A stretch of DNA of 33,217 nt from Actinomycetota bacterium (GTDB lineage Bacteria; Actinomycetota; Acidimicrobiia; IMCC26256; JAENVU01): the NCBI GenBank assembly GCA_016870395.1, contig VGBT01000028.1:1-33217 (forward strand), given 5' to 3'. The position numbers and the translations under genes were made by a program. A model generated the notes under the pieces. It was not told the DNA's origin. It did no database searches and saw nothing but the letters and a program-made list of their open reading frames with translations. Below, piece by piece: positions 524 to 20,897 of the stretch. Each line of letters starts with the position of its first letter. Position 1 is the first letter of the stretch.

Positions 524-713
524 TCAGCCTGTGCCGAGCGCCGCCTCCAAGCGATCGGCCGCCTCGCGTTGCGCTGGCGGCAGAACGCCTGCGTAGATAT
601 CTGCCGTGATCGCCAGCCCCGCATGCCCCAGTGTTCGGGAGACGACCTCAACGGCACCCCGCCGCCAGCATCGCCGTTGCGGCTGAATGCCGAAGGCTGT
701 GGAACCCTCGCCT
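524..713 (-). pseudogene. Tyrosine recombinase (integrase) C-terminal remnant
   Basis: On the minus strand one frame gives FHSLRHSAATAMLAAG, the HxLRH motif of tyrosine recombinases. A second frame gives EVVSRTLGHAGLAITADIY followed by about 20 residues to a TGA at 524-526. The catalytic tyrosine codon is at 592-594. The two pieces join into one normal integrase C-terminus if two single-base deletions are assumed near 648-657 (around the G-V-P-L-E stretch). Nothing upstream of the HxLRH block remains, because an IS3-family copy starts at about 714 and no N-terminal part was found beyond it. The 3' end faces the tRNA-Arg fragment 100 bases away. The gene is clearly inactive. Confidence 0.8.
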
Positions 714-776
714 TGGAGTTGCCCCGCTTTCCTGGACACCCGATCCTGGGCGTTGTCGAGGGGGAGGAGACCCGAG

Positions 777-1061
777 GTGGGTCGTCCAGCGAAGTACCCC
801 GAGGAGTTCCGGCGTGAAGCGGTCGCGTTGTACCGCGGTTCGGATCGATCTCGGGCTGAGGTCGCGAAGTCGTTGGGGATCGGGCATGGTTCACTCGCCG
901 CTTGGGTGAAGGCCGCGGCGCGCGACGAGGCGCCGGGCGCGCTCGACCCTGACGAGCGGGCGGAGCTCGAGCGGCTTCGTGAGGAGAACAAGGACTTGCG
1001 GATGGATCGCGAGATCCTGCGGAAGGCAGCCGCGTATGTCGCGCGGAAGACGAACAGGTGA
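777..1061 (+). CDS. IS3-family transposase orfA
   Basis: A 94-residue protein beginning MGRPAKYPEEFRREAVAL, with the helix-turn-helix of IS3 OrfA proteins (about residues 5-50) followed by a leucine-zipper-like segment (about 60-85, with ERLREENKDL). It would bind the element's ends and form part of the OrfAB fusion transposase. GTG at 777 is chosen because GGAGGAG sits about 8 bases upstream and the family N-terminus starts there. The stop TGA overlaps the GTG of orfB (GTGA), the usual place for programmed frameshifting in this family. This frame is intact, but its partner orfB is dead, so no active transposase is expected. Confidence 0.8.
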   Translation: MGRPAKYPEEFRREAVALYRGSDRSRAEVAKSLGIGHGSLAAWVKAAARDEAPGALDPDERAELERLREENKDLRMDREILRKAAAYVARKTNR

Positions 1062-1975
1062 GCCGCGCATTCGTCTTCGAGCACGCCGGGACGTTCCCGA
1101 TCAAGTGGCTCTGTGAGCTGGTCGGGGTCTCTCGGTCGAGTTTCTACGGGTGGGCCAGCCGCCGGCTGTCGGACCACGACGTCGACGACGCGTCGCGCGC
1201 GAACGAGATCTGCGACATCTACGTCGCGTTGCACGTACGGGTCGCCGCGAGTCCACGGCCAGCTTCGCAATCGTGGCCGCCGGCACGGCCGCAAGCGGGT
1301 TGCTCGACTCATGGGCGAGTGCGGGCTGGTCGGCGTGCACGGGCGACGCAAGTGGCGGCGCGGCAAGCGAGACACCGCCCCCGCGGGTGACCTGTTGGAG
1401 CGGGACTTCACCGCCGAGCGGTCGAACCAGCGGTAAGTCGCTGACATCACCGAGTTCGCGTGTCTCGACGGCAAGCTGTTCCTTGCCGGCATCAAGGACC
1501 TCTGCGACCTGGCGCTGGCGGGTTGGTCGATGGGTGAACGTCAGACCACCGACCTCGTCGTCAACGCGCTCGTGATGGCACTCGCGCGCCGTGCGCCCGA
1601 CGGCGAGCTGCTGCAACGACTGGTTGAACCCGGTCAGTTCACGAGTGTGCGATACGGCGAACGACTCGCGGAGCTCGGCGCGGTCCCATCGATCGGCAGC
1701 GTCGGCGAAAGCTTCGACAATGCCCTGGCCGAATCGGTGAACGCGCTCTACAAGACCGAGCTGATCTACGGACCCGACCAGGGACCGTGGAAGACGGTCG
1801 AGGATTTCGAGCTCGCGACCCTGAGCTGGGTGCACTGTCACAACACCGCGCGGCTCCACAGTCACTCCAGCGACGTGCCACCGGACGAGTTCGAAGCCGC
1901 GTTCTACGCTGCCGACCAGGCCACCCCAGAGGGGTCGGAAACCAATAACCCGAGCCTCCAACCAGGGCGATTCAG
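1058..1975 (+). pseudogene. IS3-family transposase orfB (DDE integrase core), broken
   Basis: The first about 60 codons match OrfB (WLCELVGVSRSSFYGWASR). A one-base loss near 1240 moves the rest into another frame (TYGSPRVHGQLR). In that frame a TAA at 1434-1436 replaces the tryptophan that normally precedes the first catalytic aspartate (WVADIT). The usual HSDxGSQ block with the second aspartate is replaced by QRLVEPGQF near 1620-1645. The conserved end, with GSVGESFDNALAES and its catalytic glutamate, is intact. Three separate lesions show long-standing inactivation. After about 1950 the frame runs out of the element without a family-like end. Confidence 0.85.
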
Positions 1976-2277
1976 AGTGCCGTGCAGTCGGTGCTCCTTC
2001 CGGCCGCGGGTTGGGATCACGACCTCTACTTCTGCTCGTTCTCGACCATCGCACGGGTGTTCGCTTCTGCGTGACGTCGCCCGCCGCCGTGCTCTTCGAC
2101 ACCGTCGCACCGTTCCTGCTTCACAAGGCTCTCTGTCGCATCCTCGACCCAATTGAGTCCAACTGAATTCCTTGTTCCCGGTGAGTTCGCCCGACTCGGC
2201 AGCATTATCGAGCTGTCGATGCGTGGGCTCCGACCGGCACGTGACGACGTGACCATGCTCGTTGTAGTTTCGGGCGC
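1976..2277. other. Spacer with possible gene remnant, then upstream region
   Basis: No intact gene is seen. On the plus strand one frame gives AGWDHDLYFCSFSTIARVF (about 2005-2070) and another gives SPAAVLFDTVAPFLLHKALC, running to a TGA at 2155-2157. Together they look like a frameshifted C-terminal fragment of a protein I do not recognise. The last 40 bases hold a likely promoter for the gene at 2278. Confidence 0.35.
2241..2270 (+). promoter_or_regulatory. Putative leaderless promoter for the gene at 2278
   Basis: TAGTTT (2265-2270) fits the TANNNT -10 consensus and ends 7 bases before the ATG. GTGACG (2241-2246) is a weak -35 match at an 18-base spacing. No Shine-Dalgarno sequence precedes the ATG. 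Transcription probably starts at or next to the start codon. Confidence 0.45.
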
Positions 2278-3990
2278 ATGATCGAGATCACCGAATCGCA
2301 TGCCCGCGGTGTCGAGCCGGACGACCGTCAGACCGTCACGACCCCGGGTGGGCAGCGCGCACATCGGCTTCACGTCGCGCAATCCGAACGCGTCGCTCGA
2401 AAGTTCTTTGCAGTCGGTGACGACGCGTGGTGTCTCGTGGGCAACGGGCTCGCGAATCAGACGTTCGTGCGGGGGCCCGAAGGCATCATCGCGATCGACA
2501 CGGGCGAGTCGATCGAGGAAATGCGGGCCGCCATCGCCGCTCTGCGTGAGGTGACCGGCGAACCGATCGTCGCTGTCGTGTACACGCACTTCCACTACGT
2601 TGCCGGTACGCAGGCGGTGCTCGACGAGGCCGGAGCTGACACCCCGATCTGGGGTCATGCGATGATCGACGCGAACCGCAGCAGAGCCCAAGGTGAGATT
2701 GGCCCGACGTACATCCGCGGGGTGATCGAACAGTTCGGGATTGCGCTTCCGTCCGAGGGAGACGATGCCGTTGTCAACGTCGGCCTCGGCCAGGCATGGC
2801 ACAACGCGGAGCACGCTCCCTTCACGAGTGGCTACGTGGCGCCGACCCACACCTTCGACGCGGACACGACGATCTCGGTAGCGGGTCTCGAACTGCAGAT
2901 AACGCTCGCGCCGTCGGATGCCGACGACTCTGTCACCATCTGGTTCCCCGAGCTCGAGCTCGCGGTTCACAACATTGTGTGGCCCGTGTTGTTCAACGTG
3001 TTCGCGATTCGCGGCGAGGAGTACCGCGACCCTTGCATCCTGCTGAGCGGAATGGATCACCTTCACGGGCTCAGCGCCGAGCACTTGATCGGCACTCACG
3101 GCCCGCCGATGTCTGGTCGTGACGAGATCGCGGCGCGCGTTACCCGTTCGCGCGACGCGATCCAGTTCCTATGGGATCAGACGGTTCGTTGGACCAACCG
3201 CGGTGCGACCGGACCCGAGCTCGCGCACCTCGTCGTGCTGCCCGAATGCTACGACGACGACTACCTCACCCAGCAGCTCTATGGCCTCGTCGAGCACCAC
3301 ACGCGTCAGATTCGCAGTGGCCTGTTCGGGTTCTTCGACGGTGATCCACAGCAGCTGCTCCCGCTGCCTCCTGCGCTGCGTTCAGAGCGGTTCATCGACG
3401 CGATGGGCGGGCGTGATGCCGTGCGCGATCGCGTTCGAGCGGCACTCGACGACGACGTGCGCTGGTCGCTCGAGCTCGCAGGCATCCTCGCCGCTGCAGC
3501 TGACGCGCAGAGCGAGGATCGCGAACTGCTCGCCGCAGCGTTGCGCGTCGCCGCCCGCCGTACGACCGCCGCAAACATTCGTAACTGGTGCCTCACTCGA
3601 GCGCGTGACGTCGAGGGAACCGGCGATCTGTCACTCATGCGCGCGCACCGCTTCAATCGCGAGCAGGTCCTCGACTGGCCAGCGACTACCGCAGTTCACA
3701 TGCTGCGCGTGCTTGTCGATCCCAGGTTGCTCTCTGGCGTCAATCTGCATCTTTGCGTCGAACTGGACGAAGACCGAGCGGGTCTTCACTTCCGCAACGC
3801 GATCGCGTGTCCGACCGACGGCGCCGGAGCCGAAGCAACCCTGCACACAAAGCACGCGACGTGGGCGGAGTTGCTCGACGGAACTCTCGCGCTTGGCGAC
3901 GCGATTGGCGACGCGCGAGTCACGATCGACGGAGACGTCGCTGCGGTCCGCGCTGCGCTTCGCTGCATCGACCTCCCCGCGTTCCGGTGA
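2278..3990 (+). CDS. Alkylsulfatase-like metallo-beta-lactamase protein with altered metal site
   Basis: This 570-residue protein has the three-part layout of SdsA1/YjcS-type alkylsulfatases (type III): a metallo-beta-lactamase domain (about 40-275), an alpha-helical dimerisation domain (about 280-425) and an SCP2-like C-terminal domain (about 435-570). Known members hydrolyse alkyl sulfate esters with two zinc ions. The metal motif is unusual: the family's HxHxDH is here H104-F-H106-Y-V108-A109, so the aspartate and last histidine are missing. The downstream glutamate ligands appear as D214 or D216 and H231 (PSDADDS, AVHN), while GTH274 is kept. It may bind one metal, use a different metal set, or have changed reaction. 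ATG is supported by the leaderless promoter. Its stop overlaps the next sulfatase start (GTGA), so the two are probably co-translated. No signal peptide is visible, so it is probably cytoplasmic. Confidence 0.8.
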   Translation: MIEITESHARGVEPDDRQTVTTPGGQRAHRLHVAQSERVARKFFAVGDDAWCLVGNGLANQTFVRGPEGIIAIDTGESIEEMRAAIAALREVTGEPIVAVVYTHFHYVAGTQAVLDEAGADTPIWGHAMIDANRSRAQGEIGPTYIRGVIEQFGIALPSEGDDAVVNVGLGQAWHNAEHAPFTSGYVAPTHTFDADTTISVAGLELQITLAPSDADDSVTIWFPELELAVHNIVWPVLFNVFAIRGEEYRDPCILLSGMDHLHGLSAEHLIGTHGPPMSGRDEIAARVTRSRDAIQFLWDQTVRWTNRGATGPELAHLVVLPECYDDDYLTQQLYGLVEHHTRQIRSGLFGFFDGDPQQLLPLPPALRSERFIDAMGGRDAVRDRVRAALDDDVRWSLELAGILAAAADAQSEDRELLAAALRVAARRTTAANIRNWCLTRARDVEGTGDLSLMRAHRFNREQVLDWPATTAVHMLRVLVDPRLLSGVNLHLCVELDEDRAGLHFRNAIACPTDGAGAEATLHTKHATWAELLDGTLALGDAIGDARVTIDGDVAAVRAALRCIDLPAFR

Positions 3991-6317
3991 CCGCATCCGA
4001 ACTGCCTCGTCCAACGCCAGAGTTCTCCGGGAAGATCGCCCGTCTGATCAAGGATGCGACCCCACGGCGACTCGCCAGTCCGTCCGCACCCGAGGGCGCA
4101 CCGAACGTGCTGCTTGTCCTCCTCGACGATGTCGGATTCGGAGCACATTCCACGTTCGGCGGTCCGGTTCCGACGCCTGCCTGTCAGGCCGTCGCGGATC
4201 GAGGGCTGCGCTACAACCAGTTTCACACGACGGCGCTGTGTTCACCGACCCGTGCCGCGCTGTTGACGGGCCGCAACCACCACGCGGTGCACATGGGCGG
4301 GATCACCGAGATCGCGAACTCATTTCCCGGATACGACTCAGCGATCCCTCCCGAGGCTGCAACCGTGGCCCAAGTGCTGCGCATGTCCGGCTACGCCACC
4401 GGATGCTTCGGCAAATGGCACCTCGCGCCGGGATGGGAACAAGGCCCCGCGGGGCCTTTCGATCGCTGGCCGACCGGGCTGGGGTTCGACCGGTTCTACG
4501 GAGTTCTGGGCGCCGAGGCGTCGCAGTTCGAGCCGCCCGTCTACGACCAGACGACGCCCATCGCCCCGTATGTCGGCCGCGACGACTACCACCTCACCGA
4601 AGACCTCGCCGATCGCGCGATCGAGTGGATCGAGCGAGTGACCGCATCCGCGCCCGGTAAGCCGTTCTTCTGTTACTTCTCCACGCCGGCGGTGCACGCG
4701 CCCCACCACGCCCCGAAGGAGTGGATCGACCGGTTCGCCGGGGAGTTCGACGACGGTTGGGACGCGTTGCGCGAGCGGATCTTCGCGGAGCAACGGCGGC
4801 TCGGCGTGATCCCCGATGGGACACGCCTGACACCGCGCCCCGAGCAGGTACCGGCGTGGGATGAATACCCGGAGCGCTACCGACCCATTGCCCGCCGGCT
4901 GATGGAGTGCTTCGCCGGATTTCTCGCGCACACCGACGCGCAGATCGGGCGGGTAATTGATGCGATCGGCCGGCTCGGTCTGCTCGACGACACGTTGGTC
5001 ATCTACATCACCGGCGACAACGGCGCGTCCGCAGAAGGAACCGTCCACGGCGCGTGGAGCGCACCCGCGTTCCAAAATGGATTCCAAGAAGATCCCGAGT
5101 GGTTGTTGGAGCACATCGACGACTTCGGAACCGCCCGTTGCGAAAACCACTTCAACGTTGGGTGGGCCTGGGCGCTCGACTCGCCGTTCCAATGGATGAA
5201 GCAAGTCGCCTCGCATTTCGGCGGCACCCGCAACGGCATGGCGTTGTCGTGGCCGAGGCGCATCGGCGACGCCGGGGCGCTGCGCACGCAGTTCCATCAC
5301 GTCATCGACATCGCACCGACGATCTATGCCGCGGCTGGGGTCACACCACCGGCGCGGGTCAACGGGATCACGCAGATGCCGCTTGACGGTGTGTCGATGG
5401 AGTACACCTTCGCTGTCGACGGCCCCAGCGCTCGTACCACGCAGTACTTCGAGATCCTCGGAAATCGCGCGATCTACCACGACGGCTGGATCGCCTCGTG
5501 CTTTCACGGTCGCCTCCCGTGGGTGCGAGTTCAGGGCTACGAGTTCGACGGCCCGCAAGAGCACTGGGAGCTATACGACATACGCGACGACTTTTCTCAG
5601 TCGGTCGACCTCGCCGCGCTTCACCCTGAGTTGCTTGTGGCGATGCAAGATCGTTTCGACGAGGCCGCCTCGCGCTGCGGCGTGTACCCGCTACGCGACC
5701 CAGGCTCTCCCTTCTGGGGCGAGTTCTCCGTACCGTCCTCACTCGGTGAAGCCACTGCGGTGACGTACACCGCATCGCACGTGCGCATGCCTGAGTCGTC
5801 GGTCGTCAATCTGAAGAATTGTTCGTGGCGGATCACTGCGGAAATCGACGTCGGTATCGCTCCTGCGCGCGGCGTAATCGCATGTCAGGGCGGCACTATG
5901 GCAGGCTGGTCGCTCTACCTCGACGATGGCCGACCAACCTATTTGTACAACTGGTTCGGCAAAGAGCTCACGTTCGTATCCGCCCCGCACGCACTTGCGG
6001 TTGGCGGGCACTTCGTCGTTGTCGAGTTCGATTCGGATGGGGGAGTCGGTCCACCTGGAGTCGTCACGTTGTCCGTCGATGGTGTTGCGGTTGTCTCAGG
6101 CCGGGTTGAGCGCACCGTGCCGATCGTGTTTTCGATGAGCGGCGAGACCTTCGACGTCGGGACCGATACCGGTTCACCGGTCGGACCGTACCCTCACCTG
6201 TTCCCATGTACGGCGACGATCCGTGGTGTGACGCTTGAACGCCTGAGCGAGCCCGGCGCCGCGATCGCCGCCGCCGAGCGCGCCGGCCTCATCGAAGCGG
6301 GTCTGCGAGCTCAGTAA
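3987..6317 (+). CDS. Arylsulfatase (type I, formylglycine-dependent)
   Basis: A 776-residue sulfatase close in size to long actinobacterial arylsulfatases such as the mycobacterial AtsA type. Metal-binding DD is at residues 47-48 (LLDDVGFG). The signature CSPTR begins at C85, the cysteine converted to formylglycine by a separate maturation enzyme not present in this window. GKWHLAP and TGDNGAS supply further active-site and calcium ligands. The last 200 or so residues form a beta-rich C-terminal region. The reaction expected is hydrolysis of a sulfate ester; the substrate cannot be read from sequence. GTG at 3987 is chosen because it overlaps the preceding stop and leaves a normal N-terminus; the frame stays open further upstream but only as a shadow of the previous gene. 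No signal peptide is seen. Confidence 0.9.
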   Translation: MTASELPRPTPEFSGKIARLIKDATPRRLASPSAPEGAPNVLLVLLDDVGFGAHSTFGGPVPTPACQAVADRGLRYNQFHTTALCSPTRAALLTGRNHHAVHMGGITEIANSFPGYDSAIPPEAATVAQVLRMSGYATGCFGKWHLAPGWEQGPAGPFDRWPTGLGFDRFYGVLGAEASQFEPPVYDQTTPIAPYVGRDDYHLTEDLADRAIEWIERVTASAPGKPFFCYFSTPAVHAPHHAPKEWIDRFAGEFDDGWDALRERIFAEQRRLGVIPDGTRLTPRPEQVPAWDEYPERYRPIARRLMECFAGFLAHTDAQIGRVIDAIGRLGLLDDTLVIYITGDNGASAEGTVHGAWSAPAFQNGFQEDPEWLLEHIDDFGTARCENHFNVGWAWALDSPFQWMKQVASHFGGTRNGMALSWPRRIGDAGALRTQFHHVIDIAPTIYAAAGVTPPARVNGITQMPLDGVSMEYTFAVDGPSARTTQYFEILGNRAIYHDGWIASCFHGRLPWVRVQGYEFDGPQEHWELYDIRDDFSQSVDLAALHPELLVAMQDRFDEAASRCGVYPLRDPGSPFWGEFSVPSSLGEATAVTYTASHVRMPESSVVNLKNCSWRITAEIDVGIAPARGVIACQGGTMAGWSLYLDDGRPTYLYNWFGKELTFVSAPHALAVGGHFVVVEFDSDGGVGPPGVVTLSVDGVAVVSGRVERTVPIVFSMSGETFDVGTDTGSPVGPYPHLFPCTATIRGVTLERLSEPGAAIAAAERAGLIEAGLRAQ

Positions 6318-6493: not shown

Positions 6494-7885
6494 CTAGACC
6501 GCCTCAGCGAACCAGTTGGCATGGAAACCGATCGGCACGCGGCGCGGGATGTGCACCCGCGCGACCGGGCCGGCCGCCACGTCACGCGCGTCGAGGATCG
6601 CGAGGTCGGTGCAGTCCGTGGCGCGGTCGGTGACGAGCGTGAGCAGCCAGCCGTCGTCCTCGGCGGTGCCGTTCGGGTCCGGCGCAAACGCGTGCTCGCC
6701 GGAGACCTCCGAGTCGGCGTAGAAGCACTCGGTGGCGTTCCCGGTCTGGGTGTCGTACTTCACGACCCCGTGGAACTCGAACTCGAACTCCCAGGTGCGG
6801 GCCATGCAGTTGTAGAGGTACCGAGTGGGTCGGGTGGCGAGATCGTCGTTCACCCTCGGGAACTCGCCCCCACGGTCGTCGGTCTGCTCGGCACGAACCG
6901 TGTTCGCAGCGAGGTCGATCGACCACGACCACGGGACGGGTGCCTCCTTGCCGGTCGGTTCGTCGAACTCGAAGCCACCGGGCATGTGCGAGAAGCGTGG
7001 CGCACGCACCTCGACACGCCCGTCCTCGTCCCAGGCGTTGAAGAAGTGCACGATGTACTGGTTGTCCACGTCGTACCAACGGATGTCGGCGTTGTTGCCG
7101 CGGCGGGGCATCACGCCGAGCCGCGTGCCCTGATCGGGTGCCCACCGCATCATTGGGCCCCCGCTCATCATCGACTCGGCATCGAACAGCGCGGGCGAGT
7201 CGAGGAACACGACGTGCTTCTCGGTCACCGCGAAGTCGTGGATCATCACGGCGTTGGGGATGTCGATGTCGGCGGAGTGCACGAGCACCCCGGACGCGTC
7301 GACGACGTGATACCGGAGGTACGGCGGGAACGGGGAGTAGCCGAAGAACAACATCTCGCCCGAGACCGGATCGATCTTCGGGTGTGCGGTGAACGAGCCG
7401 ACGAGTCGGCCGTCGAAGTCGCACTCACCGAGCGTCTCGAGCTCGCGGCTGAGCATCGTCGGGGGGCACGCCTCCATGAGGGAGAGGATCCGGTTCGCAT
7501 GGCGCACGGTGTGCGTGTTGGAGGTGTTCTTGATCATCCCGCCTTCGGCGGCGACGTCGGGCTCGGGGATCGCGAACTCGGCCAGCCCGCCGTAGAGCGC
7601 GCGGCCCCGGGCGCGTTCGGCCAGCAGGCCCTTGGACTCCACCCAGCGGTTGCGGTATCGCACTCCGCCGTCCTCGAAGTAGACGGCGTGCACCATGCCG
7701 TCACCGTCGAACGGGTGGTACTTCCCGCGGGGCGCGAACTGCGGGTTCGGGCCGTTGCGCACGAACATCCCGTGCAATCCGGCCGGGACCTCACCGGTCA
7801 CGGTGAGATCGCGGTCGTCGCGCTCGTCGGTGACGGGTGTCATCAGTCCGGTAAGGAACGGCGACGGCGGCATTGTGACGGTCAT
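6494..7885 (-). CDS. Carotenoid oxygenase (RPE65/CCD family)
   Basis: A 463-residue protein matching non-haem iron carotenoid/stilbene cleavage dioxygenases, which cut a conjugated double bond with O2. All four iron-binding histidines are present with family-like spacing: H168 (FTAHPK), H216 (MIHDF), H280 (IVHFF) and H455 (GFHANW). The N-terminus has the usual GEVPAGLHGMFVRNGPNP block. It follows the ABC transporter genes on the same strand after 62 bases, but that gap contains a TetR-type operator, so it probably also has its own regulated promoter. The convergent arylsulfatase ends 176 bases away with no clear terminator between. Substrate could be a carotenoid, apocarotenoid or stilbene-like aromatic; sequence alone does not decide. 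Confidence 0.92.
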   Translation of the reverse strand: MTVTMPPSPFLTGLMTPVTDERDDRDLTVTGEVPAGLHGMFVRNGPNPQFAPRGKYHPFDGDGMVHAVYFEDGGVRYRNRWVESKGLLAERARGRALYGGLAEFAIPEPDVAAEGGMIKNTSNTHTVRHANRILSLMEACPPTMLSRELETLGECDFDGRLVGSFTAHPKIDPVSGEMLFFGYSPFPPYLRYHVVDASGVLVHSADIDIPNAVMIHDFAVTEKHVVFLDSPALFDAESMMSGGPMMRWAPDQGTRLGVMPRRGNNADIRWYDVDNQYIVHFFNAWDEDGRVEVRAPRFSHMPGGFEFDEPTGKEAPVPWSWSIDLAANTVRAEQTDDRGGEFPRVNDDLATRPTRYLYNCMARTWEFEFEFHGVVKYDTQTGNATECFYADSEVSGEHAFAPDPNGTAEDDGWLLTLVTDRATDCTDLAILDARDVAAGPVARVHIPRRVPIGFHANWFAEAV

Positions 7886-7908
7886 GGGGTCCCCCGATCC
7901 ACAGCAAG

Positions 7909-7921
7909 TGAACAGTGTTTA
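7909..7921 (-). promoter_or_regulatory. TetR-type operator upstream of the carotenoid oxygenase
   Basis: TGAACAGTGTTTA contains the perfect 9-bp palindrome AACAGTGTT, a typical TetR-family operator core. It lies 24 bases upstream of the oxygenase ATG. A related sequence, TGAACGCTGTAAG, lies in front of the tetR gene at 13364-13376; the two share TGAAC, two variable bases, then TGT. The link to that TetR protein is inference. Confidence 0.55.
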
Positions 7922-7947
7922 TCACCTGGTCGCGCTCCGGTGCCCGG

Positions 7948-8688
7948 TCACTCGGCGAGCCCCAGGTAGCTGCGCGCAATGCGGTCCTGATCGCCCAGCA
8001 GGGCCGCGGCCTCACCCGTGAGCACGACGCGGCCGTTGAACAGGACGTGCGCCCGGTCGGCCACTGCGAGGGCAGCAGTGACGTACTGCTCGACGAGCAG
8101 CACGCCAAGGTCGTGCTCGCGGGCCAACCCGCGAACGAGGGGCAGCAGCTGCTGCACGACGATCGGAGCGAGGCCGAGGCTCAGCTCGTCCAGCATCACG
8201 AGGCGGGGCCGGGCGACAAGTGCCCGTGCGATGGCGAGCATCTGCTGTTCGCCACCCGACATGAGCCCGGCCTTGCGGTCGACGACCGCGGCGAGATGCG
8301 GCATCGCCGCGAGCACCTCGTCGACCGCCGCGTGATCGCCGCGCCGTGCCGCGAGCCGCAGGTGCTCGCGACCGGTGAGCCCGAAGAACAGGCCGCGGTC
8401 CTCCGGAACGTGCGCGACGCCAGCGCGCGCGACCACCGTCGGACCGACACCGCGCGTGCCACGGACGCGCGGCCGCAGTGACACCGAGAGCACGTCGACC
8501 TCACCTGCCAGCAACGGCAGCAGAGCGGAGACGGTGCGCAGCGTGGTGGTCTTGCCGGCGCCGTTCGGGCCTAGCAGCGCGACCACCTCGCCCGCGTGCA
8601 CCCGCAGGTCCAGTCCGTGCACGATCTCGACCTCGCCGTAGCCGGCATGCAATCCGCGGATATCGAGCAGCACCTCGGGCCTACTCAT
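7948..8688 (-). CDS. ABC transporter ATP-binding protein, LivF type
   Basis: A 246-residue ATPase with Walker A GPNGAGKT (about 39-46), signature LMSGGEQQ, and Walker B with the catalytic glutamate (LVMLDE). Length and the C-terminal GLAP/VEQ blocks fit LivF, the second ATPase of branched-chain amino acid or amide-type uptake systems. It acts on the cytoplasmic face, powering import by the fused permease encoded upstream. Its ATG overlaps the stop of the LivG-type gene by four bases (ATGA), so it is part of the tetR-led operon. Substrate is unknown; many relatives import aromatic or other hydrophobic acids rather than amino acids. Confidence 0.9.
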   Translation of the reverse strand: MSRPEVLLDIRGLHAGYGEVEIVHGLDLRVHAGEVVALLGPNGAGKTTTLRTVSALLPLLAGEVDVLSVSLRPRVRGTRGVGPTVVARAGVAHVPEDRGLFFGLTGREHLRLAARRGDHAAVDEVLAAMPHLAAVVDRKAGLMSGGEQQMLAIARALVARPRLVMLDELSLGLAPIVVQQLLPLVRGLAREHDLGVLLVEQYVTAALAVADRAHVLFNGRVVLTGEAAALLGDQDRIARSYLGLAE

Positions 8689-9431
8689 GTCGCGTTCCCG
8701 AGGTATGCGGCGGTCACCGCCGGGTCGCTTGCCACCGTCGCAGTTGGGCCGCTCGCGATCACCGAGCCGACGTCGAGCACCACGAGGTCCCGGCAGACGT
8801 CGAGCACGAGTGACATGTCGTGGTCGACGAGGAGAACACCGACGCCGGTGGCAGGCAACCGGCGCAACAACCCAGCCAGCGCGACCGTCTCATTGGGGTC
8901 GAGACCGGCCGCGGGCTCGTCGAGCAGAAGCAGGCGCGGGCCGGTGGCCAGCGCGCGGGCGACGCTCACGAGACGCCGCTGGCCGTGCGACAGCGCCTGT
9001 GGCCGCTCCGCCGCGAGGTCCGGGACCCCCACCAGCTCGAGCAGCCTGGCGACGTCCACACGACGCGAGCTCCGGAACGGGGCGACGAGGTCGAGCAGCG
9101 TCGACCACCAGTGTCCGATGCTTGCCGCGACCTGCACGTTCTCGGCGACGGTGAGGTCGTCGAACAGCTCGATCGACTGGAAGGTGCGAGCGAGCCCGGC
9201 ACGTGCCCGCTCGTGTGGCTCGAGGCCTTCGAGACGACGGCTGCCAAGCATCACGGTGCCGTGGGCCGCGACGAACCCACACAGCGCGTCGATGGTCGTC
9301 GTCTTCCCGGCACCGTTCGGGCCGATGAGCCCGGTCACCGAGTCGAGCGCAACGTCCAGATCGACGTTCTCCACGGCGAGCAGCCCGCCGAAGGAGACGG
9401 AGAGACCCCGGACCGCGAGCGTGCCGGTCAT
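8685..9431 (-). CDS. ABC transporter ATP-binding protein, LivG type
   Basis: A 248-residue ATPase with Walker A GPNGAGKT and Walker B LLLLDEP followed by AAGLDPNE. The signature reads ALSHGQRR, with histidine instead of the first glycine of SGGQ, a variation seen in this family. The block RTFQSIELFDDLTVAEN is typical of LivG. It pairs with the LivF-type ATPase downstream. Both boundaries are four-base ATGA overlaps, with the permease upstream and LivF downstream, so translation is coupled across the set. Confidence 0.9.
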   Translation of the reverse strand: MTGTLAVRGLSVSFGGLLAVENVDLDVALDSVTGLIGPNGAGKTTTIDALCGFVAAHGTVMLGSRRLEGLEPHERARAGLARTFQSIELFDDLTVAENVQVAASIGHWWSTLLDLVAPFRSSRRVDVARLLELVGVPDLAAERPQALSHGQRRLVSVARALATGPRLLLLDEPAAGLDPNETVALAGLLRRLPATGVGVLLVDHDMSLVLDVCRDLVVLDVGSVIASGPTATVASDPAVTAAYLGNAT

Positions 9432-11293
9432 GTCTGCTTCCGTTGCAGCCGCCGCGCGCCGCGCGCCGCGAGCGCCGCCAATCCGTCGGGGGCGAAGATC
9501 ACCACCACGACGAGCAGCGCGCCGCTCACCGCGAACTGCGTTGCCGAAGTGGAACCGGTGGTCCCGCCCTGCAGCTGAGTCAGGACACCCCCGGACGCGA
9601 GCAGTCCGGCGACGACCGCGCCCGAGATCGCGGCGATGCCCCCGAGATAGCAGAGAGCGAGCACAGCAAGACCGCCCACGACTATGAACTGCTGCGGCGA
9701 CAAAGCGGGCAGCTCGTAGGCGAGCAGCGCGCCTGCAACACCGGCCAGCCCGCTCGACAGCGCGAACGCACCGAGCTTCGCGGCGCGCACGTCGATGCCA
9801 CTCGCCGCGGCCGCCCGCTCATTGCTGCGCACCGCCAGCCACCGCAGCCCCGTAGAGCTGCGCCGTAGGTTGGCGACCCCGAGAGCGCAGACCAGCAGGG
9901 CGGTGAGCACCAGCACACCGAACTCGGGTCGGAAGCTGTCGCGCCCCTGGCCGAGAAAGCCGAGGTCGATCCCCAACAGCCGCGGCCGGGGGACCCCTGA
10001 CAGGCCGTTGAGCTCAGGCGACGCGAACACCAGCTGTTCGATCGCCACCGCGGCCCCGAGCGTCGCGACCGCGAGCGTCATCCCGCGCACCCGAAGCGCC
10101 GGAATGCCGACGAGCACGCCGACGACGACCGTGAGCGCGATCGCGAGGAGAGGTGCCCACGGGAACGGCACGCCCTCGAGCGCGAGCTTCGCGGTCGAGA
10201 ACGCGGCGAGGCCGGTGAACGCGTACTGCGCGAGGGAGATCTGGCCGAGGTAGCCGGTGAGCACCACGCTGGACAACCCGACGATCGCCGCGATCATCGA
10301 CACCACGATCGCGAGGCGCCAGAGATCCTCGAGCGTGAAAAGGGCCATCAGCGCGAGTGCACCGAGGACGAGAGCAACCGGCACCGGGCGGTACGGCACG
10401 GGGGCAGCGGGAGGGCGCCCCTCGACGAGCGACTCGCGCATCGGCAGCTTCGGGCCGCGCCAGGTGATCGCGACGATGATCACGATCACCGGCAGCGCCG
10501 CCGCGAGACCCCCGCGAGGCAGCCAGTCGCCGGTCCAGTCGGCCCGGGCCTGGAACGTCCCGAGCGCCCCGGCCGCCATCGAGATCACGACCGCGCTCGC
10601 GAGGGTCGCGCCGAAGCTCGACAGCCCACCGATCAGTGCCGCGGCGAGCGCCGGGACGATGAGCAGGCTCGTGTCCAGGGGGTCGAGCCGGCCGGAGACG
10701 CCGGCGAACAAGATGATCGCGAGTCCGGCGGTGACAGTGGCGATGATCCAGTTGGCGAAGCCGAGGCGGCTCGGCGAGATGCCCATCAGCATGAGGCCGG
10801 TCTCGTGCTCGGCGCCGGCCCGCGTGGCGAGTCCGAAGCGCGTCAGGCGGAACACGAGCGACAGCACGAAGGTAAGGACGATTGCGAGTCCGAGCAGCAC
10901 GAAGGCGTACTGCGGGACGCGAGCGCTGCCGATGTAGACGGCGTCGGTCGGCAGCAGCGAGTCGAGGCGCAGCGAGACCGCGCCGCCCCCCGATTGTCCC
11001 ACGCGCAAGGCCATCACCGACTGCAGGTAGAGGAAGACGCCGAGTGACGCGACGACGCGTGCCAGCGGTGGCGCGTGACGCAGAGGTCGGAAGACCAGGC
11101 CGTAGACGGCAGCACCGAGCGCAGCTGCGACGAGGATCGCGACGGTCAGCGCCGTGAGCACCGTTGGCCGGTCGATCACGTGCACCCTCGCGGGCAGTCC
11201 GAGGATCGGCAGGATGAGGTCGCCCCCCAGCTCGGTGCTGCGCACGTCGAAGTTGCGCATCGAGAAGTACGCGTACGCCACGTACATGCCCAT
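9428..11293 (-). CDS. Fused LivH-LivM-type ABC permease
   Basis: From the first ATG (11293) the protein has 621 residues. The first about 290 resemble LivH and the rest resemble LivM, with a basic linker around residues 285-310. The LivM half holds GYLGQISLAQYAFTG and the cytoplasmic coupling stretch ASGIDVRAAKLGAFALSSG. It forms the membrane channel of the import system. Homology clearly starts earlier: the same frame upstream encodes SLTGLGTGAVVAVLAIGLVL and then FRASNVLNFAHAA, the normal LivH first helix. In that upstream stretch there is no ATG, GTG or TTG; the codon where a start is expected is GTA at 11428-11426, overlapping the TAG of the preceding gene. The true start is therefore unresolved, and the full protein is probably about 666 residues. 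The 3' end overlaps the next ATPase by ATGA. Confidence 0.85.
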   Translation of the reverse strand: MGMYVAYAYFSMRNFDVRSTELGGDLILPILGLPARVHVIDRPTVLTALTVAILVAAALGAAVYGLVFRPLRHAPPLARVVASLGVFLYLQSVMALRVGQSGGGAVSLRLDSLLPTDAVYIGSARVPQYAFVLLGLAIVLTFVLSLVFRLTRFGLATRAGAEHETGLMLMGISPSRLGFANWIIATVTAGLAIILFAGVSGRLDPLDTSLLIVPALAAALIGGLSSFGATLASAVVISMAAGALGTFQARADWTGDWLPRGGLAAALPVIVIIVAITWRGPKLPMRESLVEGRPPAAPVPYRPVPVALVLGALALMALFTLEDLWRLAIVVSMIAAIVGLSSVVLTGYLGQISLAQYAFTGLAAFSTAKLALEGVPFPWAPLLAIALTVVVGVLVGIPALRVRGMTLAVATLGAAVAIEQLVFASPELNGLSGVPRPRLLGIDLGFLGQGRDSFRPEFGVLVLTALLVCALGVANLRRSSTGLRWLAVRSNERAAAASGIDVRAAKLGAFALSSGLAGVAGALLAYELPALSPQQFIVVGGLAVLALCYLGGIAAISGAVVAGLLASGGVLTQLQGGTTGSTSATQFAVSGALLVVVVIFAPDGLAALAARGARRLQRKQT

Positions 11294-11424
11294 CGCCGCG
11301 TGCGCGAAGTTCAGGACGTTCGACGCGCGGAACGTCAGGACGAGCCCGATCGCGAGAACCGCGACGACTGCCCCGGTACCGAGGCCTGTCAGCGATTGCT
11401 GGAAGTAGGGCGTGATGGCGCGCT

Positions 11425-12738
11425 CTACTTCCCGGACCGACCCGCGAACGCTCCGACGTCCAGCCAGCCGGTGATACCCGTGACCTCCCCCTCACTGAGC
11501 CGACCTAGGGACTGCTGGGGCGAGCACATCGCCGGGTAGCCCTCCAGCTGGTGTCCGTCGCACGTGTACGGGTGACCGAAGAAGCTCGGGTGGTTCTTCC
11601 CGTCGCGTAAGGTCTGGAGGATGCGAGTGCGCGTAACGTCGTCGCCTCCGATCGTTCGCAACACGGCGTAGAGGTTCATGACCGCTCTGAACGACACGGT
11701 GCCGGCACTCAGCGCCTCGTATCCGTATTTCGGGCCGTAGCGCGCCGAGACCAACCGGTACAGCACGTTGTCGGGATGGCTCGGGTCGAGATCTGCTTCG
11801 AGGTTGAACACCGCTCCCTCGGCCGCGCCGTCTACCGAGTCGACGATCTTCGGCGCCGCGCACGCGCCGGTGTACATGATCGGCATCTTCAATCCGAGCT
11901 GCTTTGCAGTCAGCATCGTGGGCTTGCAGCCGCTGTCTGCGGTCAGGGCGATGATCGCGTCGGGTTCCGATTGGACCGCCGTGTTGAGCGCCTGCACCAT
12001 GTCGGCGTTGATCGTGGCGACGCTCACCAAGGTGGTCTTCACTCCGCGCCGTTCGAGCGCGCGCTGGCCGAGCTTGGCGGCGTCTGTGATCGGCCCGAAG
12101 TCAGCTGCGATGATCGCCACGTGCTTCGCGTGGTGCTTTCGCAGTGCGTACTCGCCATGGCCGAGCACGGCACCCCAGATGCCTCCGCTGAACTGGAAGC
12201 TGACCGGGCTGCGCGCAGCCTCGAAGCTCACCGGGATCCCGCCAACGTACGGGATGTTGTTGTTCTCGAGGGTGGTGATGCCAGTGCCCCACACGTCGAT
12301 ACCACCGACGACGGCGTCGACCTCCTCCGCCACCATCCGCTGTGCGCAGGCCTGGGACAGATCAGGGCTGAACTGGGTGTCGCAGGTTACGAGCTCGATA
12401 GGGTGTCCGTCGACTCCGTTCAGCTCGTTGTTGATGAAGTCGATCGCGGTGCGGTCGGCGGCGGTGAGCTCGGGGAACGCGCCGGCCGCGCCCGTGTCTT
12501 GGTTGATCGTGCCGATCTTGATCGGGGTGCCGGTCGCTCTCGTCGGCTTCTCGGGCAGAAGTGGATCGAGCGTCGTGCCTTTCGGCGCGCACTTTAGGAC
12601 CGAGGTGGCGTGGGCACAGTCGTCGGTGCCCGCCAAGGTCGAGGTTGGTGCCGTCGCACTTTTCGGGATCGGTTCCGAACACGCGGCGAGCCCGGCGAGC
12701 CCGAGCGCCGCGACAACGAGAGAGAGGAGGCGGCTCAT
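11425..12738 (-). CDS. Substrate-binding lipoprotein of the ABC uptake system
   Basis: A 437-residue periplasmic-binding-protein family member (LivJ/Peripla_BP_6 type). The N-terminus MSRLLSLVVAALGLAGLAAC is a lipoprotein signal peptide with lipobox LAAC; lipidation would be by Lgt (a copy is at 24840). The mature part begins its ligand domain with IKIGTINQDTGAAG. Several cysteines may form disulfides. ATG at 12738 is chosen because it overlaps the tetR stop (ATGA) and gives the signal peptide; longer frames upstream only shadow tetR. It captures the substrate outside the membrane and hands it to the fused permease encoded next. Confidence 0.9.
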   Translation of the reverse strand: MSRLLSLVVAALGLAGLAACSEPIPKSATAPTSTLAGTDDCAHATSVLKCAPKGTTLDPLLPEKPTRATGTPIKIGTINQDTGAAGAFPELTAADRTAIDFINNELNGVDGHPIELVTCDTQFSPDLSQACAQRMVAEEVDAVVGGIDVWGTGITTLENNNIPYVGGIPVSFEAARSPVSFQFSGGIWGAVLGHGEYALRKHHAKHVAIIAADFGPITDAAKLGQRALERRGVKTTLVSVATINADMVQALNTAVQSEPDAIIALTADSGCKPTMLTAKQLGLKMPIMYTGACAAPKIVDSVDGAAEGAVFNLEADLDPSHPDNVLYRLVSARYGPKYGYEALSAGTVSFRAVMNLYAVLRTIGGDDVTRTRILQTLRDGKNHPSFFGHPYTCDGHQLEGYPAMCSPQQSLGRLSEGEVTGITGWLDVGAFAGRSGK

Positions 12739-13343
12739 GGACCTGAATCCCGCACCGCAAGGCCGTCGACCACCGCGTCGATGACGGATGTGGCGAGGGC
12801 GCGGTCGATCGTTTGCTCGGCGGCGGGGTCGCCGACGGTGAGCAGCGTCGCGACGCCGTGCACCGCCGACCAGATCGTGAGTGACGCGAGAACCGGATCT
12901 GACTCGCGCAAGCTTCCCTGTGCGATCGCGGCCTCCACCGCGCTCGACGCGAGCTTCCATGCCTTTGACGCAAGTGGCAGCTCGGCCGGGCCCGGGTCCT
13001 CCAGCCACGGCGGTCGGTAGGCGAACATCACCGCGAAAAGTGCGGGACTCGCCACCGCGCACTCGACGTACGCGGTGCTCTGCATCTTGATCTGCTCGAC
13101 CGGGTCGACCTCGGCGTCGGCGGCGCGTTCGATTGCGTCGATCAGCAGCGCGAACTCTGCGTCGGCGATCGAGGCGACGATCGCGTCCTTCGAGTCGAAG
13201 AACCGGTAGAGCGACGGCGCGGTGACCCCGAGCCGGGCCGCAAGTCCGCGGAGAGAGAAGGCGCCGATCCCCTGGGCGACGATCATCGCTCGCGCCGTGT
13301 CGAGGATCGCGTCGCGCGACAGGCGCGGCGATCTCGTGGTCAT
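12735..13343 (-). CDS. TetR-family transcriptional regulator
   Basis: A 202-residue protein with an N-terminal TetR helix-turn-helix (about residues 10-55; DTARAMIVAQGIGAFSLRGL, then LGVTAPSLYRFFDSKDAIV) and a C-terminal ligand-binding domain of usual size. It is the first gene of the transporter operon and overlaps the lipoprotein start by four bases. A purine-rich GGGGG ribosome binding site lies about 10 bases upstream of the ATG. An operator-like sequence at 13364-13376 overlaps the likely -10 box, which suggests self-repression relieved by a ligand, perhaps the transported compound. Confidence 0.92.
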   Translation of the reverse strand: MTTRSPRLSRDAILDTARAMIVAQGIGAFSLRGLAARLGVTAPSLYRFFDSKDAIVASIADAEFALLIDAIERAADAEVDPVEQIKMQSTAYVECAVASPALFAVMFAYRPPWLEDPGPAELPLASKAWKLASSAVEAAIAQGSLRESDPVLASLTIWSAVHGVATLLTVGDPAAEQTIDRALATSVIDAVVDGLAVRDSGP

Positions 13344-19376: not shown

Positions 19377-20897
19377 GTGAGTGGCCGGCATGCCAACGTG
19401 TGCTTCATCACGGTCGACCAGTGGCGGGGCGACTGTCTCGGCGTGGCGGGGCACCCCGTGGTGCGGACCCCGGCGCTGGACCGTCTTGCCGCGGAGGGTG
19501 TGTGCTTCCGGCGCCACTATGCGCAGGCGACGCCCTGCGGCCCCAGCCGGGCGTCGCTGCTGACGGGCCAGTACCTGCACAAGCACCGGTCGGGGCTCAA
19601 CGGCACGCCGCTCGACTCCCGGTTCACCAACCTCGCACTCGTTGCGCGCGCGGCCGGTTACGACCCCGTGCTGTTCGGCTACACGGACCAGTCGCCCGAC
19701 CCGCGGGTGCTCGACGTGGACGACCCGCGGCTGCGGACCTATGAAGGCGTGCTTCCCGGCTTCCGTGCGGTCGTCGACCTCCCCGAGCACCTCGAGCCGT
19801 GGGGAGCATGGCTGCGCGAGCTCGGCTACGAGGTGCCCGACGACGTACGGCGTATGTACGACCCGATGACCGACGCGCCCGGAGCGCCGGTCCGGTACGC
19901 GCCGGAGCACTCCGAGGCCGCGTACCTCGTCGGCGAGGTCCTCGCCCATGTCGACCGCTGCGGGGACGAGCCCTGGTTCGCACATGTCGCGTTCATCCGC
20001 CCGCACCCGCCGTTCGTGGCCCCCGAGCCCTACGCGTCGATGTTCGACCCGGCCGACGTGGGACTCCCGATCCGCCACCCGAGCCCGGAGGTCGAGGGCG
20101 CGGCGCATCCCCTGCTCGCGGCCGCAGTCTCGGTGCCGGGCGTGCCCGGGCCGCACGACGAGGAGGGGATCCGGCAGCTGCGCGCCACCTACTACGGGAT
20201 GATGGCCGAAGTCGACGCCCAGCTCGGCCGGCTGTTCGACGGCCTGCGCGAGCGCCGCCAATGGGACGACACGCTCGTGGTGGTGACGTCGGACCACGGG
20301 GAGCAGCTCGGCGACCACTGGCTCACCGACAAGCTTGGCTGGTTCGACGAGAGCTACCACATCCCCCTGATCGTGCGTGACCCCTCGCCCGAGGCCGACG
20401 CCGGACGCGGGAGCCTGGTGGAGCACCGCTTCACCGAGAACGTCGACGTGATGCCCACGATCCTCGAGTGGATCGGCGCAGCGGTCCCGGTACAGTGCGA
20501 TGGTCGATCGCTGCTGCCGTTCCTGCGCGGTGAGGATCCGTTCCCCTGGCGCAGCGCCGCGTACTGGGAATGGGACTTTCGCGATCCGATCGGCCAGTGG
20601 GCCGAGCGAACGCTCGGGATCACGAGCGACCAGTGCGCGATCTCGGTGCTGCGAGACGAGCGCGGCAAGTACGTCCACTTCGCAGCGCTCCCACCGCTCT
20701 TCTACGACCTCGAGCTGGACCCGAACGAGATGGTCGACCGGGCGACGGATCCTGCCTACGCCGTGACCGTGCTCGGCTACGCGCAGCGGTTGCTCTCCTT
20801 GCGGATGGAGCACGTCGACCAGACCCTTACCTGGACCGTGGTGACGCCCGAGGGTGTGCTCGACGGCCGCGACCCCCCGCCGTTCGCTCGCCGCTGA
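19377..20897 (+). CDS. Sulfatase / phosphonate monoester hydrolase-like protein
   Basis: A 506-residue member of the alkaline-phosphatase superfamily, sulfatase branch. The signature CGPSR begins at C54, the predicted formylglycine. Other ligands are D14 near the N-terminus (FITVDQWRGD) and SDHGEQLGDHWLTDKLGWFD, with its metal-binding Asp-His. The overall pattern (CGPSRASLLTGQY, then DHGEQLGDH) is closer to phosphonate monoester hydrolases and related phosphodiesterases than to the arylsulfatase at 3987. It might act on sulfate or phosphate esters. No signal peptide is seen. It needs a formylglycine-generating enzyme encoded elsewhere. Confidence 0.88.
   Translation: MSGRHANVCFITVDQWRGDCLGVAGHPVVRTPALDRLAAEGVCFRRHYAQATPCGPSRASLLTGQYLHKHRSGLNGTPLDSRFTNLALVARAAGYDPVLFGYTDQSPDPRVLDVDDPRLRTYEGVLPGFRAVVDLPEHLEPWGAWLRELGYEVPDDVRRMYDPMTDAPGAPVRYAPEHSEAAYLVGEVLAHVDRCGDEPWFAHVAFIRPHPPFVAPEPYASMFDPADVGLPIRHPSPEVEGAAHPLLAAAVSVPGVPGPHDEEGIRQLRATYYGMMAEVDAQLGRLFDGLRERRQWDDTLVVVTSDHGEQLGDHWLTDKLGWFDESYHIPLIVRDPSPEADAGRGSLVEHRFTENVDVMPTILEWIGAAVPVQCDGRSLLPFLRGEDPFPWRSAAYWEWDFRDPIGQWAERTLGITSDQCAISVLRDERGKYVHFAALPPLFYDLELDPNEMVDRATDPAYAVTVLGYAQRLLSLRMEHVDQTLTWTVVTPEGVLDGRDPPPFARR

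Follow-up and report, generated by a model that had tools for sequence, protein, structure and literature searches.

The type III alkylsulfatases SdsA1, SdsAP, Pisa1 and YjcS (family S3 of SulfAtlas) share a three-domain build, and they are the closest described relatives of the protein studied here. The hallmark motif of the metallo-beta-lactamase superfamily is HxHxDH (PMC7785958). In a comparison of alkylsulfatase crystal structures, the ligands of one zinc are Asp/His/His/Glu and those of the second are His/His/Glu/Glu, and the second zinc is reported to be the more easily lost; the equivalents of the ligands in SdsAP are H192, H194, D196, H197, E303, E322 and H367 (PMC5426288). Family S3 is delimited by HxHxDH, by at least 30% identity with SdsA1 over about 600 residues, and by a sulfate-loop pattern, [AGSIT]-[EDNA]-...-[HP]-[NDQA]-...-[RCT]-G-...-R (PMC5066984).

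The window, that is, the whole stretch of DNA that we analysed, comprises 33,217 nucleotides of contig VGBT01000028.1 from an actinobacterium of the class Acidimicrobiia. On its + strand, positions 2278-3990 encode an alkylsulfatase-like protein of 570 amino acids, identified by open reading frame, Pfam, profile alignment, fold match and tree. The frame is intact from its ATG start to its TGA stop, as a previous reading of the DNA from its letters (hereafter, the sequence-only reading) had noted. That reading also recognised three domains of the SdsA1 type. Two of these exceed their Pfam cut-offs: Lactamase_B (PF00753; residues 56-107, window 2443-2598; 29.4 bits versus 22.7) and the alkylsulfatase dimerisation domain, Alkyl_sulf_dimr (PF14863; residues 311-446, window 3208-3615; 91.1 bits versus 26). 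The third, Alkyl_sulf_C (PF14864), falls short of its cut-off (20.5 bits versus 27), yet its region is covered by both the profile alignment and the fold match. In NCBIfam, only distant SoxH-related and beta-lactamase models are hit by the window protein and by the 61 sequences of the clade alignment described below; the scores of the window protein against these models are far below cut-off.

The predicted AlphaFold2 model of the window protein has a mean pLDDT of 92.7, and crystal structures of the SdsA1 family overlay it along its whole length (Z 33-39, about 540 residues). The best match outside that family scores Z 23.8, and the only full-length relatives among solved structures are SdsA1, SdsAP, Pisa1 and two YjcS proteins. 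The metallo-beta-lactamase alpha-beta-beta-alpha fold is thus present, as indicated by the PF00753 match and by Z values of 16-39 to many of its members; its hallmark motif is absent. Compared with the type III alkylsulfatases, the window protein has the same three-domain build but only 21-25% identity in structure alignments, and it differs by a two-residue deletion, a change of His to Tyr, a change of the bridging Glu to Asn, and a change of a loop His to Phe.

We mapped the residues by means of a profile of 61 clade members aligned with the solved structures, and by a separate MAFFT alignment of 44 sequences. The residues H104-F-H106-Y-V-A-G110 (window 2587-2607) occupy the position of HxHxDHxxG in SdsA1-type enzymes, and in both alignments a two-residue gap directly follows H106. 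The Asp is therefore missing, and Y107 takes the place of the motif's final His. According to the sequence-only reading, V108 and A109 stood where the Asp and His ligands should be; we reject this direct substitution in favour of the two-residue deletion, which is clearest when HRHPDHPFGS from Nitratireductor (L145) is compared with HSHYAFGS from Vibrio (L146). H231 had likewise been proposed as the replacement for a later glutamate ligand, and this proposal does not hold either: the place of the bridging Glu is taken by N232, while H231 aligns with the preceding Ala, which is not a ligand, and varies among the relatives. A further pair of candidates, H127 (2656-2658) and D217, we reject as new ligands specific to the variant proteins, since relatives of the dinuclear type carry both.

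We take the SdsA1 ligands E280, E299 and H344 to correspond to D214, N232 and H274, respectively. In these terms, the window protein keeps the equivalents of SdsA1 H169, H171, E280 (as the Asp D214, window 2917-2919; E303 in SdsAP), H344 (H274, window 3097-3099; H367 in SdsAP) and two loop arginines, and three of the four ligands of one metal site are absent from it. It follows from the published ligand sets and our mapping that the window protein keeps the ligands of the labile site minus the bridging Glu, and that the other site is lost except for H274. One metal site of the SdsA1 family has thus been dismantled in concert, with H104, H106, D214 and H274 kept; the homology and the fold match suggest that these residues should meet in space.

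The equivalent of the SdsA1 sulfate-binding loop, residues 231-250 (window 2968-3027), has N232 for the bridging Glu, F239 for a His, and a new residue, E247, while R245 and R250 are kept. F239 aligns with H317 of Pisa1, which is presumably a catalytic residue. None of the 30 sequences of the variant clade in our tree, the window protein included, matches the S3 loop pattern, versus 11 of the 19 other sequences; the window protein departs from it at two positions, H231 and F239. It has HFHYVA in place of the S3 zinc motif, a change represented as HxHY in 115 relatives including the window protein itself, and its identity with structure 2cg2 is 21% over 541 aligned residues of a structure alignment, below the 30% of the family definition. 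The dimerisation domain expected of S3, PF14863, is present. Judged by these comparisons, the window protein lies outside the published sequence definition of S3, though it clearly derives from the same stock.

How widespread is the altered motif? A scan of bacterial and archaeal genome contigs yielded 157 relatives, 80 of which were kept and inspected, and surveys of the window's order and class supplied further ones. The relatives were recovered either through similarity over the whole protein or with patterns from which the motif itself is absent. Among 119 loci with strong similarity, a set from which known duplicates were removed but which is not fully dereplicated by species, 115 carry HxHY and four carry HxHxDH. 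All 115 HxHY sequences, whose identity to the window protein extends down to about 30%, have H104, H106, Y107, H127, D214, N232, R245, R250 and H274, and all but one have F239 and E247 (114 of 115 for each). Such a pattern, found in 115 of 115 sequences, is far beyond chance. Position 231, on the other hand, is occupied by Asn (62 sequences), His (34), Gln (18) or Asp (1). In the window's class, 37 of 395 genomes contain a match at E <= 1e-60, one of which (in genome G289) is the dinuclear-type protein L140. A survey of the phylum gave nine matches, all within the same class, and members also occur in Alpha-, Beta- and Gammaproteobacteria.

In a maximum-likelihood tree of 49 sequences, all 30 HxHY sequences form one clade with a support of 100/100, separate from 11 SdsA-type sequences and from three relatives of the dinuclear type: L140 from the window's class, L145 from a Nitratireductor plasmid, and L147 from a Caballeronia plasmid. 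These three have 28-31% identity with the window protein and have H127, D217 and further residues in common with the variant clade; unlike it, they retain HxHxDH, the Glu/Asp ligand and the bridging Glu, and hence both metal sites. Since they keep all ligands and already have H127 and D217, the change concerns one site, and the part special to the clade comprises the deletion, Y107, N232, W235, Q152 and, nearly always, F239 and E247. The deletion, the change of His to Tyr and the change of Glu to Asn always occur together in the 30 variant sequences of the tree. The deepest branch, which is a long one, is the Vibrio fortis protein L146 (WP_261905484.1, annotated as an alkyl sulfatase dimerization domain-containing protein). 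It has the same deletion and the equivalents of Y107 and N232, but only 29% identity with the window protein, with Pro at position 239 and Ser at 247. Two shorter relatives, L103 and L104 (about 440 amino acids), have a dimerisation-type C-terminus and no [TS]HxH by pattern search; they may represent another degenerate branch.

These results bear on one rival explanation of the altered motif, namely a sequencing error, a frameshift or gene decay in a single genome. The gene does adjoin decayed remnants of mobile elements, but its frame is open, and the same change recurs in 115 sequences from many assemblies which fall into a single clade; the conserved clade refutes this explanation, whose chances are negligible. 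The sequence-only reading had argued that this was not simple decay and that the protein may define a clade with a new metal site. The survey and the tree support this view, and the variant does not occur only here. The alignments and the tree point to one concerted conversion followed by long retention, rather than to repeated decay. The evolutionary fact of a variant lineage is solid. In the literature on mononuclear or degenerate alkylsulfatases, a search whose scope took in few of the subscription papers, we found no description of the HxHY clade; the lineage is real, conserved and apparently undescribed.

The reading we prefer, and which we hold to be somewhat probable, is that the lineage arose from two-zinc type III alkylsulfatase stock and is now a one-metal hydrolase, acting in a pathway with a formylglycine (FGly) sulfatase. 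The metal would most likely sit on H104, H106 and D214, possibly helped by H274, and these residues would correspond to the SdsA1 site for the second, more easily lost zinc. The other site is gone, by deletion of the Asp and replacement of the His by Tyr and of the bridging Glu by Asn, and its space is probably filled by the invariant residues Y107, N232 and W235. A water molecule on the single metal, probably zinc, would attack the substrate, while R245 and R250, which correspond to the arginines of the sulfate loop in SdsA1, would bind its anionic group. The substrate pocket would owe its shape to the dimerisation and C-terminal domains. For the actinobacterial proteins, the substrate could be the same sulfated compound that the downstream FGly sulfatase targets, or its product. 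The full-length homology and the fold match to SdsA1, SdsAP and Pisa1 speak for the one-metal hydrolase, as do the residues kept throughout the 115 variant sequences, the joint replacements within a single clade, the dinuclear-type relatives with all their ligands, and the pairing with an FGly sulfatase. Against it, what remains is the weaker of the two sites of the parent family, and its bridging Glu is lost as well; Phe stands opposite H317 of Pisa1 in 114 of 115 sequences; E247 is unexpected in a sulfate binder; and most proteobacterial members are found without an adjacent sulfatase. The family could even bind no metal at all.

A narrower version of the one-metal reading would have the protein still acting as an alkylsulfatase or sulfate-ester hydrolase, by the type III reaction with one zinc. 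Both sulfate-loop arginines are kept, the gene is paired with an FGly sulfatase, and mono-zinc metallo-beta-lactamases (CphA and Sfh-I, and mono-zinc BcII) are active with one zinc. CphA and Sfh-I are among the fold neighbours of the window protein; they retain the motif-2 Asp, their zinc occupying not the site proposed for the HxHY clade but the other one, and the dimerisation and C-terminal domains are absent from all three enzymes. However, the zinc pair that activates the water in SdsA1 cannot form in the same way, Phe replaces the conserved His of the sulfate loop, and the S3 loop pattern does not fit. The nearly invariant E247 is, moreover, unexpected in the sulfate-loop equivalent of a sulfate binder. 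With the two arginines seeming to argue for sulfate-ester hydrolysis, and the lost His and the new Glu against it, we entertain this version only tentatively. Slightly easier to entertain, though still short of probable, is the broader proposal that a single concerted change turned the dinuclear site of an alkylsulfatase scaffold into a mononuclear one (two His, one Asp, and perhaps a third His) with a rebuilt pocket, giving a hitherto unrecognised enzyme family whose reaction is other than alkyl sulfate hydrolysis.

The pairing with a second sulfatase gene, which the sequence-only reading had remarked upon, is shown by our analysis. A type I (FGly) sulfatase of 776 amino acids with a GTG start, identified by open reading frame and Pfam, lies at 3987-6317 on the + strand and overlaps the end of the variant gene by four bases (GTGA); its FGly motif C85-S-P-T-R is at 4239-4253. 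At 67 of the 82 actinobacterial-group loci whose flanks are long enough, the variant gene is followed directly, on its own strand, by an FGly sulfatase gene; at three more, the sulfatase gene is adjacent but differently oriented. The partners have identities with the window's partner from 42% upwards, mostly 64-79%, and every partner checked carries the FGly motif, C-[SA]-P-[ST]-R or something close to it. At 31 loci of canonical or other type, whose flanks are short (about 1.5 kb for most), there was no such partner. In the window's genome, the formylglycine-generating enzyme family is represented by a single gene, set beside nine matches to PF00884; one of the latter, with SGSH_C, is a second sulfatase gene at window 19377-20897.

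So tight a coupling with an active-looking sulfatase, along with the loss of half the metal ligands, would also suit a catalytically dead protein with a structural or regulatory role, perhaps in partnership with the neighbouring sulfatase, and metal-free or non-catalytic metallo-beta-lactamase domains are indeed known, in class-C flavodiiron proteins and Trz1 (PMC7785958). We consider this unlikely, for the retained ligands and pocket residues are invariant in 115 sequences with identities down to about 30%, as suits an active site, and 20 of 23 proteobacterial loci have no adjacent sulfatase (three of 23 do).

The neighbouring genes vary among lineages. In one freshwater group they include an isopenicillin-N-synthase-like oxygenase, a ferredoxin/molybdopterin-type subunit and a dimethylglycine-dehydrogenase-like protein; in other lineages, an FMN-dependent dehydrogenase, a zinc-type dehydrogenase, an epoxide hydrolase and DUF3604 proteins. 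Such varied neighbours suggest catabolism of a small molecule, without naming it. Another metal is conceivable as well: H104, H106 and D214 amount to a 2-His-1-carboxylate set, and iron enzymes occur within the fold (PMC7785958), so that the protein might carry a single non-haem iron and catalyse a redox or oxygenase reaction. This we regard as distinctly improbable, as there is no direct sign of iron, the HxH pair belongs to a site that holds zinc in the parent family, and the neighbouring genes examined include no conserved reductase partner. The isopenicillin-N-synthase-like 2OG-Fe(II) oxygenase of the freshwater actinobacterial group is encoded by a gene that immediately precedes the variant gene (L007:288-1274, with 20 similar loci). 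The DUF3604 proteins lie beside the variant gene in proteobacterial loci (L050:1030-4979 and L064:2804-4780); in L050 the variant gene is directly preceded, on its own strand, by a Pfam-confirmed DUF3604 gene (3042-4979), which itself follows a second gene of similar appearance. A literature search for DUF3604 together with sulfatase found no papers.

The HxHY lineage looks like a natural experiment in which exactly one of two catalytic metals was removed from a scaffold that has been studied well, and the outcome long kept. The surviving relatives of the dinuclear type allow a comparison, so that the role of each alkylsulfatase metal becomes directly testable. An automatically assigned name such as 'alkyl sulfatase' cannot be relied on in this lineage. 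The recurring pair of unlike sulfatase-type proteins, for its part, directs attention to their shared substrate, if there is one.

The gene pair probably reached this genome by lateral transfer, to judge by its composition, surroundings and relatives. GC3 is 0.77 in both genes (2278-6317), whereas the measured neighbours lie at 0.86-0.93. An IS3-type insertion sequence has left remnants with broken frames at window 687-2153 (HTH_Tnp_1 at 687-1058, integrase core at 1530-2153), which end about 120 bases before the alkylsulfatase-like gene. The tree places the window protein nearest to one from a different family of the same order, and a genome of the same genus, G021, carries a much more distant member. 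Further upstream, at 385-640, a short frame on the - strand resembles the C-terminal end of a tyrosine recombinase (TLGHAGLAITADIYAG...) and adjoins a stretch that resembles the 3' end of a tRNA gene (GGTTCGAATCC), at which ARAGORN finds no complete tRNA; the two together suggest an old integration site. On the other side of the gene pair, window 6494-13062 contains an RPE65-type carotenoid oxygenase gene followed by an ABC transporter cluster of the branched-chain amino acid type.
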